In this document: piece after piece, positions 27,470 through 34,606 of the stretch | How the letters are laid out: each line of letters starts with the position of its first letter | Position numbering within the stretch: position 1 is the stretch's first letter | NCBI RefSeq assembly: GCF_904846685.1 | Contig: NZ_CAJHBQ010000001.1 | Coordinates: 496,001-560,000 of the forward strand | Direction of reading: 5' to 3' | DNA length: 64,000 nucleotides | From: Psychrobacter submarinus | GTDB lineage: Bacteria > Pseudomonadota > Gammaproteobacteria > Pseudomonadales > Moraxellaceae | The notes under the pieces: generated by a model | Database searches by the model: none | Seen by the model: only the letters and a program-made list of their open reading frames with translations | What the model was told of the DNA's origin: nothing | Position numbers and translations under genes: made by a program

Positions 27470-29954
<2,485 letters not shown>

Positions 29955-31619
29955 ATGACAGACTTTCATACCGGTCTTGGCAAAACGCCTGCCAATCACC
30001 AACCGCTCACTCCTATCGACTTCATCATCCGTAGCGCGCAGGTCTACCCTGACAAAACCGCTATTATCTACGACGATCTGACGCACAACAACCTCACCCA
30101 GAGCTGGCAACAGACTTATGATCGCTGTCGTCAGTTATCAGATGGCCTGCGCAAACTGGGTATCGATAAAAACGACACCGTAGCCGTCATGCTGCCTAAT
30201 ACCCCTGCTATGGTTGAGGCTGCTTTTGGGGTGCCGATGTCGGGCGGTGTGCTTTGTACATTGAATACTCGGCTCGATATCAATGCCTTAACCTTTTGCG
30301 TGCAGCATTCTGAGGCCAAAGTGCTGATTATGGATAGCGAATTTGCGGATTTGGCGGAGATTATCGACGAGACTTTTCCTAATCTGATCGTCATTCATGC
30401 CACAGATGCAGCCATTGAGGTAGAAGATTTTGGCAAAATGACTTACGAGGAATTGATTGCCAGCTCAGATGATTTGGATAATTGGGAAAAACCTGAGGAT
30501 GAATGGGAAGCTATCGCGCTCAACTATACTTCTGGCACGACTGGTAAGCCAAAAGGCGTGGTCTACCATCATCGCGGCGCGACGCTAAACGCCGTATCCA
30601 ATATTCTAGATTGGGATATGCCTAAGCATCCGACCTACTTGTGGACACTGCCGCTATTTCATTGTAATGGCTGGTGCTTCCCGTGGACGATCGCCGAGCG
30701 CGCAGGCGTCAATGTCTGCTTACGCCAGATTGATGCCGAGCTGATTTTGCAATTAATCGCTAAGCACAAGGTCACTCATTACTGCGCGGCGCCTGTGGTG
30801 CATAATATGATAGCGGGCGGTAAACAAGAGTACAAAGACGCGATTGATCATAAGGTCAAAGGCTGGGTCGCTGGCGCGCCGCCATCAGAGACGATGCTGA
30901 CGGCAATGGAGGCGATGGATTTTGATATCACCCATGTTTATGGCTTGACCGAAGTCTATGGACCCGTCACCGTCTGCGCTGAGCAGCCCGAATGGCAAGA
31001 CATGGACGTCGCTGAACGCGCGCAAAAAAAATCGCGTCAAGGCGTGGTTTCACACTTAATGACAGGCTTTGAGGTCTTTAAACAAGGCACGACGGATCCG
31101 GTTGAAGCCAATGGCGAGGATATGGGCGAGCTGGCGCTGCGCGGTAACATGGTGATGAAAGGCTATCTAAAAAGCCGTAAAGCCACTGATGAAGCGCTAA
31201 AAGATGGCTGGTTTCGCACCGGTGACTTGGGGGTCAAATACCCTGATGGCTATATCAAAATTATGGATAGGCTAAAAGACATCATCATCTCAGGCGGCGA
31301 GAATATCTCAAGTATCGAGGTCGAAAACGTCTTATACAAACTACCTGCCGTGCAAAGCTGCGCTGTCGTTGCCGCCCCTCACGACAAGTGGGGCGAAGTA
31401 CCCGTTGCCTTTATCGAGATTCACGAGGGCAGCACCTTACAGCGCGACACTGTCATGGCACACTGCAAGCAGCATTTGGCAGGCTTTAAAGTACCCAAGT
31501 ACATTATCTTTGCTGAAATACCTAAGACCAGTACCGGTAAAATACAAAAGTTTGAGCTACGTCAAGCGGCCAAGTCATTAGCCCATGAGACACCAAAAGT
31601 CACGGCTAGCTCCGAGTAG
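29955..31619 (+). CDS. acyl-CoA synthetase (AMP-forming), medium-chain type
   Basis: A 554-residue ANL ligase. P-loop [21 protein letters not shown] and the LWTLPLFHCNGWCFPWT segment are typical of the AAE / AlkK / methylmercaptopropionate-CoA ligase branch. It also has VYGLTEVYGP, the adenylate motif DGWFRTGDLGVKYPDGYIKIMDR and the C-terminal PKTSTGKIQK with the catalytic Lys. It activates a short-to-medium carboxylic acid; the exact substrate is not predictable. AAGGA precedes the ATG. The terminator after it is split by a small mobile repeat at 31700-31869. Confidence 0.93.
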   Translation: MTDFHTGLGKTPANHQPLTPIDFIIRSAQVYPDKTAIIYDDLTHNNLTQSWQQTYDRCRQLSDGLRKLGIDKNDTVAVMLPNTPAMVEAAFGVPMSGGVLCTLNTRLDINALTFCVQHSEAKVLIMDSEFADLAEIIDETFPNLIVIHATDAAIEVEDFGKMTYEELIASSDDLDNWEKPEDEWEAIALNYTSGTTGKPKGVVYHHRGATLNAVSNILDWDMPKHPTYLWTLPLFHCNGWCFPWTIAERAGVNVCLRQIDAELILQLIAKHKVTHYCAAPVVHNMIAGGKQEYKDAIDHKVKGWVAGAPPSETMLTAMEAMDFDITHVYGLTEVYGPVTVCAEQPEWQDMDVAERAQKKSRQGVVSHLMTGFEVFKQGTTDPVEANGEDMGELALRGNMVMKGYLKSRKATDEALKDGWFRTGDLGVKYPDGYIKIMDRLKDIIISGGENISSIEVENVLYKLPAVQSCAVVAAPHDKWGEVPVAFIEIHEGSTLQRDTVMAHCKQHLAGFKVPKYIIFAEIPKTSTGKIQKFELRQAAKSLAHETPKVTASSE

Positions 31620-31686
31620 CGCTATGCAGAATACTTATTGATGCTAAGTATTTATTAGTGATAAGTACTTATTAACACTAAATAAT

Positions 31687-31892
31687 AAAGCTCAGCCTAG
31701 GGCGTGTCCCTATTTTAAAAATGGTGATAAAAATGAGATAAATCGCAGGCAAACAAGGAAAATAGCGCAGGTAATATCAAGATATTGGCCAACTATTTGA
31801 CACCGTTTGCCAAAGATTTAGCCATTTTTAGCCCATTTAGTCATAAACGCTTGAATTAGGGACACGCCCTAATTGTCTTAGGCTGAGCTTTT
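31687..31892. terminator. terminator split by a MITE insertion
   Basis: The two half-stems AAGCTCAGCCTA (ending 31699) and TTAGGCTGAGCTT (starting 31879) lie on either side of the element. Removing 31700-31869 and one TA joins them into a perfect 13-bp stem with loop TTGTC and a T tail. In its current state the loop is about 175 bases long, so termination may be weakened. Confidence 0.75.
31700..31869. mobile_element. 170-bp MITE with GGGCGTGTCCC termini
   Basis: Non-coding element bounded by exact inverted repeats GGGCGTGTCCC (31700-31710) and GGGACACGCCC (31859-31869), extended imperfectly inward, with TA on both sides (31698-31699 and 31870-31871). A TA target duplication is typical of IS630/Tc1-mariner-type transposition; that family assignment is inference. 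It sits in the loop of the ligase terminator. No transposase with these ends is in the window. Confidence 0.8.
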
Positions 31893-31929
31893 TACTATCA
31901 ACAGATTGCGATATTACCAAGCGCAACTA

Positions 31930-32349
31930 TCAATTCATCTTTGGCTCAAGCCATTGAAATACCAGCATCCCAACTAGCATCGCAGGAATAAACACATAAG
32001 CCTGCCATTGGCCCGTGCCTAATAGTACGACACCGGGCCCAGGGCAGATACCGACAAGGCCCCAACCGATACCAAACAGCATCGCGCCGATGACAAGCTT
32101 GCTAGTAACCTTAGTTTTGGTCGGCATCTCAATCTCATCGCCTACCCAGCTGCCCCGCTGCCGCCGAGCCCATTGCACCCCAACGATAGCGACAGCAAGG
32201 CCGCCGCCCATCACTAAGGCCAGTGAGATATCCCACGCGCCAAAGACGTCTAAAAACCCTTGCACCTTAACCGGATCGGTCATACCCGATATCAGCAGTC
32301 CTAAGCCAAACAGCAGGCCTGTAAGTAAGCCGATGATATTTTTTAGCAT
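31930..32349 (-). CDS. YeeE/YedE-type sulfur transporter half (DUF6691 type)
   Basis: A 139-residue membrane protein with about four hydrophobic segments. The N-terminal GLGLLISGMTDPVKVQGFLDVFG and GIGWGLVGICPGPGVVLLGTG motifs, the latter with its conserved Cys, mark the second half of a split YeeE/YedE pair. Such proteins take up thiosulfate or other reactive sulfur species at the inner membrane. It follows the partner gene by 56 bases, forming a two-gene operon. No sulfur-sensing regulator or persulfide dioxygenase gene is adjacent. Confidence 0.88.
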   Translation of the reverse strand: MLKNIIGLLTGLLFGLGLLISGMTDPVKVQGFLDVFGAWDISLALVMGGGLAVAIVGVQWARRQRGSWVGDEIEMPTKTKVTSKLVIGAMLFGIGWGLVGICPGPGVVLLGTGQWQAYVFIPAMLVGMLVFQWLEPKMN

Positions 32350-32405
32350 AGTTCATTCTCACTATTTATTTTCTTTTTCTCAAAACCTCTAGCCATAACA
32401 GCCAT

Positions 32406-32843
32406 TTAAATCAAGCCCAATACTTGCCGGCCGATAAACACGGTGATGATGCCAAACGCCATAAAAGTCGCTGTGGCTACCATCGAGCGCGGCGACAAGC
32501 GCGCATTACCGCAGATGCCGTGACCACTCGTGCAACCTGAGCCTAAGCGCGTACCAAAGCCGACTAACAACCCTGCTGCAATCAGCAGCGGTAAAGAGGT
32601 CGTAACCTCTATATCAGGTAGCGGTCTGAACACACTATAGAGTAAAGGCGAGAGAACTAAACCTGCAATAAACAGTACTTGCCACATCTCGACGCGCTTT
32701 GGCTGTAGCAGGCTTGAAGTAATACCGCTGATACCGGCTATACGGCCAATACCTAAGAGTAAGATAACCGTCGCTACGCCTAATATGAGGCCGCCTACCA
32801 ATGAAATAGGCGTGAAAACTTGCCAATCTATTTGTATACCCAT
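32406..32843 (-). CDS. YeeE/YedE-type sulfur transporter half
   Basis: A 145-residue membrane protein with about four hydrophobic segments. The family motif [26 protein letters not shown] (residues about 95-120) contains two Cys thought to relay sulfur. It is first in the two-gene operon with the DUF6691-type partner; together they equal one full-length YeeE. The sulfur role is family knowledge. Confidence 0.9.
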
Positions 32844-33014
32844 AATGAGAGATCCAAAAGCTACTTTGTTTTATATAAAAACATTATATATTAAAATATA
32901 ATAAATAGCTAAAAAATACTGAGCGACTGCATTAACAGGCTCAGTATTTTTAAATGCTTGGGTTGTTGACGGTTATATTCTCCAATATGAAGCCTGTAAG
33001 CGCCAAAGTAGCTA

Positions 33015-34157
33015 TTAAGCAGACTGCTCTGCTAATACTTGCTCAAGAGCGCTTTCAAAACGCTGAACCGCACCGTCGATATCGGTTAACTTATCGAGAC
33101 CGAATAGTCCTACGCGGAACGTTTTGAAGCTATCAGGCTCGCCTACTTTCAAAGGCACACCAGCGGCAATCTGTACGCCAGCTTCGGCGAAAGCGCTACC
33201 TTTATGCATATCATCACGGTCGGTGTAGCATACCACCACGCCTGGTGCTTTGAAGCCTTCAGCTGCGACACTCTCGATGCCTTTAGCTTGTAGTACTTCG
33301 CGGACACGGTTACCCAGCTGCCACTGCGCATCGCATAGTTTATCAAAACCGATCTTTTTAGACTCTGTAATAGTATCGCGGAACTGGCGCAAGCTATCGG
33401 TTGGCATTGTCGCATGATAAGCGTGACCACCATTCTCATAAGCGCGCATAATCTCTAACCACTTCTTTAAGTCCAGACTAAAGCTATTAGATTCTGTATT
33501 TTCTACACGCTGGACGGCCGCATCGCTCATCATTACAAGCCCGGCGCAAGGCGTACTACTCCAGCCTTTTTGCGGCGCACTGATCAACACGTCGATACCA
33601 AGCGCTTTCATATCGAGCCAGACACAACCTGAGGCGATACAGTCAATGACCAATAAGCCGCCAACGCTATGAGTGGCCTCGCTCAAAGCTTTGATATAGT
33701 CATTAGGCAAGATCATACCGGCTGAGGTTTCCACATGCGGGGCAAACACCATGGCAGGCTTGGTCTCTTTAATTTGAGCGACCGCTTCATCGATATCGAC
33801 CGGTGAAAAAGGCTTTGGCGCGTCGCTATCTTCGCGCTGGGCGTTTAATACCGTAGAGGATTTGGCAAGATTGCCTTTTTCTAAAATTTGCGTCCAGCGA
33901 TAACTAAACATACCGTTGCGAATGATTAAGCAGTCTTGATCTTTGGCCAGCTGATTGGCTACCGCTTCCATGCCATAAGTACCCGAGCCAGGAACGATGG
34001 CGACCGCATCGGCGTTATAGACAGATTTTAGGTCAGCAGATAAGTCATTCATCACTTGCTGAAAGACTTCTGACATATGGTTAAGGGCACGGTCAGTATA
34101 GACCACTGAATACTCTAATAGACCGTTTGGATCGATATCTTGGCGTAATGCAGGCAT
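33015..34157 (-). CDS. class V aminotransferase, alanine--glyoxylate type
   Basis: A 380-residue PLP enzyme. The phosphate-binding stretch VPGSGTYGMEAVANQL is near residue 55. LVIDCIASGCVW holds the conserved Asp, and SAPQKGWSS supplies the PLP Lys at residue 197. GLFGLDKL near the C-terminus is typical of this group (alanine-glyoxylate or serine-pyruvate type aminotransferases). The amino donor is not certain. AAGGAGTG precedes the ATG. It is a single gene in the region between the sulfur transporter and hemA. Confidence 0.87.
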   Translation of the reverse strand: MPALRQDIDPNGLLEYSVVYTDRALNHMSEVFQQVMNDLSADLKSVYNADAVAIVPGSGTYGMEAVANQLAKDQDCLIIRNGMFSYRWTQILEKGNLAKSSTVLNAQREDSDAPKPFSPVDIDEAVAQIKETKPAMVFAPHVETSAGMILPNDYIKALSEATHSVGGLLVIDCIASGCVWLDMKALGIDVLISAPQKGWSSTPCAGLVMMSDAAVQRVENTESNSFSLDLKKWLEIMRAYENGGHAYHATMPTDSLRQFRDTITESKKIGFDKLCDAQWQLGNRVREVLQAKGIESVAAEGFKAPGVVVCYTDRDDMHKGSAFAEAGVQIAAGVPLKVGEPDSFKTFRVGLFGLDKLTDIDGAVQRFESALEQVLAEQSA

Positions 34158-34606
34158 GAAGCACTCCTTGTTTTTAGATTATTTAGATTGTGTGGTTGAG
34201 ATAACTGCGTTAATGAGACAGTCATTTAGACACTAATAAGGGCTGAGACGGTTAGGTTTCAACTCATAAAAGAGACAATTTAGAATAGACGATATAGCGC
34301 TTTATCCTAGCGCTATTGCCGTTGGTAGATATTACCAGAGGACTACAGGCCCAAGACACTACAGGTGAGCTATCTGGGTTTATGCAGGGCTTACTGTCAT
34401 GTACAGAGCGCAGGCATAATATAGGCGATATCATTTGATATTATCACTGTTATGCCACACTGGCAATAGTCTGCTAGCGGTTCTATTGAGGGCTTACGTT
34501 AGCGTTTGTTCGCTTATTTCGCCCTAGTATATCACTACAGTATTTCGCCCTAGTATTTAAGCTTAACATCTAGCCTTAACATCTAGCCTTAGTATCTTGA
34601 CCCTAT
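34158..34606. other. 449-base intergenic region between same-strand genes
   Basis: It holds the promoter of the aminotransferase and the 3' flank of hemA. Short tandem repeats lie at 34515-34587. No gene or clear terminator for hemA was seen. Confidence 0.45.
34515..34587. repeat. two short tandem or near-tandem repeats after hemA
   Basis: TATTTCGCCCTAGTAT occurs at 34515-34530 and 34541-34556. CTTAACATCTAGC occurs twice head to tail at 562-574 and 575-587 within the 34 kb block. Likely slippage products with no clear role. Confidence 0.7.

Follow-up and report, generated by a model that had tools for sequence, protein, structure and literature searches.

A 170-bp MITE within a bidirectional terminator between two convergent genes of Psychrobacter

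The stretch of 64,000 nucleotides of Psychrobacter submarinus DNA analysed here, in the following called the window, carries a 170-bp MITE inside a transcription terminator that separates two convergent genes. The reading we prefer, with a probability of roughly 0.88, is that of an IS427-type MITE moved in trans, which entered a bidirectional terminator in a single insertion guided by its YTAR target and probably left termination in place. The non-autonomous element, presumably of the IS5 family (IS427 type), would be moved by the transposase of an insertion sequence (IS) with the same ends. The insertion would have been a single event, older than the split between the window strain and P. celer, into a loop-side TA of the intrinsic terminator; the site would have been hit for its YTAR (here CTAA) and not for being a terminator. 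Since the MITE forms a long foldback of its own, the terminator arms could still meet in the RNA at the foot of an extended hairpin, and termination would probably persist. The features of the region are as follows.

29955-31619, + strand: acyl-CoA synthetase (ligase) gene, followed by the terminator (NCBIfam NF006020, 828 bits, above cut-off; Pfam AMP-binding)
31687-31697, no strand: left arm (outer 11 pairs) of the interrupted bidirectional terminator (arm complementarity, fold)
31698-31699, no strand: left TA of the target-site duplication (122 of 126 distinct copies are flanked by TA at both ends)
31700-31869, + strand: 170-bp MITE, an imperfect palindrome whose terminal inverted repeats are perfect over 13 bp (own-genome copies, fold)
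31870-31871, no strand: right TA of the target-site duplication (same evidence as the left TA)
31881-31891, no strand: right terminator arm, with a T-run reaching to 31893 (arm complementarity, fold)
31930-32349, - strand: DUF6691 (YeeE/YedE-like) gene, pointing towards the ligase gene (Pfam PF20398, 152.5 bits)
32406-32843, - strand: Sulf_transp (YeeE/YedE) gene, upstream of the DUF6691 gene (Pfam PF04143, 38 bits)

The element begins with GGGCGTGTCCC and ends with GGGACACGCCC; it contains no ORF of at least 80 aa. For the occupied stretch the predicted folding energy is -84 kcal/mol (z = -9.3), and as none of 200 shuffles folded as well, this structure is beyond chance. Judged by its sequence, the element is a MITE: it is short, lacks a transposase gene, has terminal inverted repeats, occurs in many copies of fixed length with a target-site duplication, and has its ends in common with a co-resident autonomous element. 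A sequence-only reading of the window had already described a MITE with matching ends flanked by TA, and the many copies with the same ends bear this out. The genome of the strain (3.0 Mb) contains 18 other near-full-length copies with 88-99% identity in addition to some fragments, and 86 of 105 Psychrobacter genomes gave matches. For a survey of copies we took 130 loci that matched the window element best, which biases the sample towards its relatives. Removal of three duplicates and of one locus without recognizable ends left 126 distinct copies, 119 of them exactly 170 bp long. The 122 copies with TA on both sides corroborate the borders and the TA duplication that had been proposed; the other four were dropped from the counts of hairpins, context and stop codons given below.

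Outside the element, the arms AAAGCTCAGCCTA and TAGGCTGAGCTTT (31687-31699 and 31879-31891) are 100% complementary over 13 bases. When the flanks are joined and one TA is kept, the hairpin AAAGCTCAGCCTAA-TTGTC-TTAGGCTGAGCTTT results, followed by a T-run. The earlier claim that excision restores a hairpin with a TTGTC loop was thus correct, except that the stem has 14 pairs, one above the number counted then. We regard the target as an intrinsic terminator because it combines a GC-containing stem with a T-run and is uninterrupted in relatives (53 of 59 comparable loci). Rfam gave no family match in 31000-33000. A pattern scan of 29500-34500 found no terminator at the MITE site, since the loop limit of the scan is 8. 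Just upstream of the terminator (31632-31684) lie three tandem copies of a 17-bp unit; 17 bp are missing there in P. celer.

The same site was inspected in 65 Psychrobacter loci retrieved with the DUF6691 protein, 59 of which have the convergent ligase gene within the stretch. Among these 59, a hairpin with a score of at least 24 is present in 53, the MITE in one and neither in five. P. celer DSM 23510 carries the MITE at the same site as the window, and the two copies differ in 6 of the 170 nucleotides of the MITE and in a single TA base; a genome of our genus set that is probably the same assembly as this record was not counted as a second case. From so few differences at a shared site, one insertion in a common ancestor of the window strain and P. 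celer would be the simplest reading. The next nearest flanks are only about 78% identical to the window, and the empty sites are therefore homologous, not allelic. Uninterrupted homologous terminators in related species agree with the proposal that the MITE interrupts a terminator; the search for empty sites succeeded at this level, while none was found in the same species. At the same convergent site, Psychrobacter aestuarii SC35 (L122) and Psychrobacter sp. bablab_jr014 (L125) have a 26-bp spacer without a terminator. In these two loci a solo MITE- or IS-like end (TAGGGCGTGTCCTAG or TAGGGCGTGTCTTAG), located just after position 2900, provides the stop codon of the DUF6691 gene and is possibly the relic of an independent insertion.

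Does the terminator still work? The predicted structure shows the MITE folded back on itself, with the two arms of the terminator paired below. On the + strand the 11 outermost stem pairs reach probabilities of 0.72-1.0 both with and without the MITE, and on the - strand their probabilities are near-identical in the two states (0.24-1.0). From this equal pairing we expect that termination persists, and the terminator probably still works with the MITE inside; the prediction describes equilibrium thermodynamics, and the kinetics of termination with arms about 180 nt apart lie outside its reach. Intrinsic terminators normally have short loops. An insert that holds the arms this far apart could delay their pairing past the T-run, disable the terminator and allow transcription into the convergent neighbour, with antisense RNA as the result. 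We consider this unlikely, because, with the MITE folded into its own stem, no more than about 9 unpaired bases separate the arms, and the predicted pairing of the outer stem is as good as in the empty RNA. The 11-bp arms are also identical in the window and in P. celer, at an overall divergence too low for this to be significant. The sequence-only reading had suggested that the insertion lets transcription pass between the ligase and the YeeE genes. The predicted stems do not support such read-through and, as the genes are convergent and not co-directional, any read-through would be antisense. Tentatively, and at somewhat less than even odds, the model would extend to the more general notion that a foldback MITE can enter an intrinsic terminator without breaking it, its own hairpin replacing the loop. 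If so, MITEs could land in terminators and be tolerated there, and about 180 nt of structured RNA would be acceptable as the 'loop' of an intrinsic terminator. The site offers one natural test case for the survival of a terminator with a large structured insert in its loop.

The position of the window copy, together with two further copies (L261 and L297) that also sit in strong hairpins, might suggest that the family prefers hairpins or terminators as targets. The counts make this highly improbable: 3 of 122 MITE insertions lie in a strong hairpin compared to 68 of 1406 control intergenic YTAR sites from the same loci and at the same score, which indicates no preference of the family for terminators, and if a T-run is required in addition to the hairpin the numbers are 1 of 122 and 16 of 1406. 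The landing in a terminator is best taken as chance and YTAR as the real preference; the target consensus of the 126 distinct copies is taYTARta. The hairpins around L261 and L297 belong to a different palindromic repeat, whose arms are GAGTATTAGAAA-like and which may itself be a small mobile element. Between convergent genes we found 24 of 103 intergenic MITE copies and 161 of 1027 control sites (simple ORF models), and 6 or 19 of the 122 copies, depending on the margin, are located inside ORFs. In thirteen of the 122 insertions the target TA is precisely that of a TAA or TAG stop codon in an adjacent ORF (e.g. L002, L017, L142), without significant enrichment over control sites (odds 1.75, p 0.088). 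Because the MITE begins with G, a TAG stop is regenerated at the junction.

A TA duplication is typical of IS630/Tc1 transposons, and the MITE could on this ground be a remnant of such an element. An IS630-type origin had been assumed for the full-length relatives, and a search for them was proposed. The full-length elements with the ends of the MITE instead encode an IS5-family transposase (IS427 type); no IS630-type element with these ends was seen among the loci examined, which had been picked by an IS5-type protein. According to the part of PMC3281130 available to us, a 2-bp duplication and two overlapping ORFs are also usual for the IS427 group, with elements of about 830-865 bp. The IS630/Tc1 origin is hence scarcely credible. 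The partner IS in the same genome (G000:C1:433162-434001) is 840 bp long and has the ends of the MITE and a TA duplication. Its two overlapping ORFs (1581-2027 and 1793-2332 of L035) match DUF4096 and DDE_Tnp_1, and the transposase scores 186 bits with the NCBIfam IS5 model (cut-off 110). By its sequence the partner is an IS5-family element of IS427 type, the group being assigned from size, ORFs and duplication as that part of PMC3281130 describes them; members such as IS1248 and ISPaes1 resemble it in these features and in their short inverted repeats. The MITE lacks an ORF and has only its ends in common with the partner (18 bp matching on the right, 13 bp on the left); no convincing match was found between its interior and the IS beyond these ends. 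Elements with similar ends, mostly 839-845 bp in length, are present in other Psychrobacter genomes. On the strength of these ends, the 840-bp IS427-type element is the likely mover of the MITE in trans. Co-occurrence of MITE and IS ends in 105 genomes was mixed (subtype A, 1 genome versus 1.5 expected; subtype B, 15 versus 8.8, p 0.002; subtype C, 7 versus 7.3), for which reason matching of end subtypes by genome is not used as proof. Positions 1-242 of the window (G000:C1:495736-496242, - strand) contain part of a single-ORF IS5-family transposase of 263 aa. The genome has seven copies of it with equal scores, and its identity to the transposase encoded by the partner IS is about 47%.

The MITE is real and of a kind already known, and its landing site is neat but coincidental. 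Correia elements and other reviewed bacterial MITEs are not known to share its ends. We take ISAba12 elements to belong to the IS5 family. They are thought to move MITEAba12 of Acinetobacter and Moraxella osloensis, likewise a MITE of Moraxellaceae and the closest described element found, which differs from the Psychrobacter MITE in its length of 111-114 bp, its GGCTTTGTTGCACAAA-like ends and its 9-bp duplications (PMC6382973, in the part available). Correia elements and other bacterial MITEs are likewise short, palindromic, intergenic and multi-copy. The accessible part of a review of prokaryotic MITEs (PMC10969869) considers that MITEs may form terminators and cites the SPRITE elements of pneumococci. 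A literature search that covered few subscription journals gave no report that we recognised as describing the 170-bp family of Psychrobacter. The genus thus gains a well-defined, genus-wide MITE family with exact borders, a plausible partner IS and a YTAR target rule; general understanding is changed neither by the family nor by the terminator test case.

Phage records gave no match to the MITE. Diverged copies (74% identity) are present in three Moraxella osloensis plasmid records, and the ends and TA flanks are preserved in both of the records that were inspected. Three end subtypes occur among the MITEs (TCCCTA, TCTTCA and TCCTCA). In an alignment of 33 copies, selected from 101 distinct ones of 170 bp so that their similarity stayed below 97.5%, double changes affect 7 of 58 pairs of the fold. 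We considered this covariation as a sign of a selected RNA and rejected it: the strongest pairs, at the ends (columns 10-12 with 160-162), more plausibly reflect end subtypes, since the same subtypes are also seen on the IS ends.
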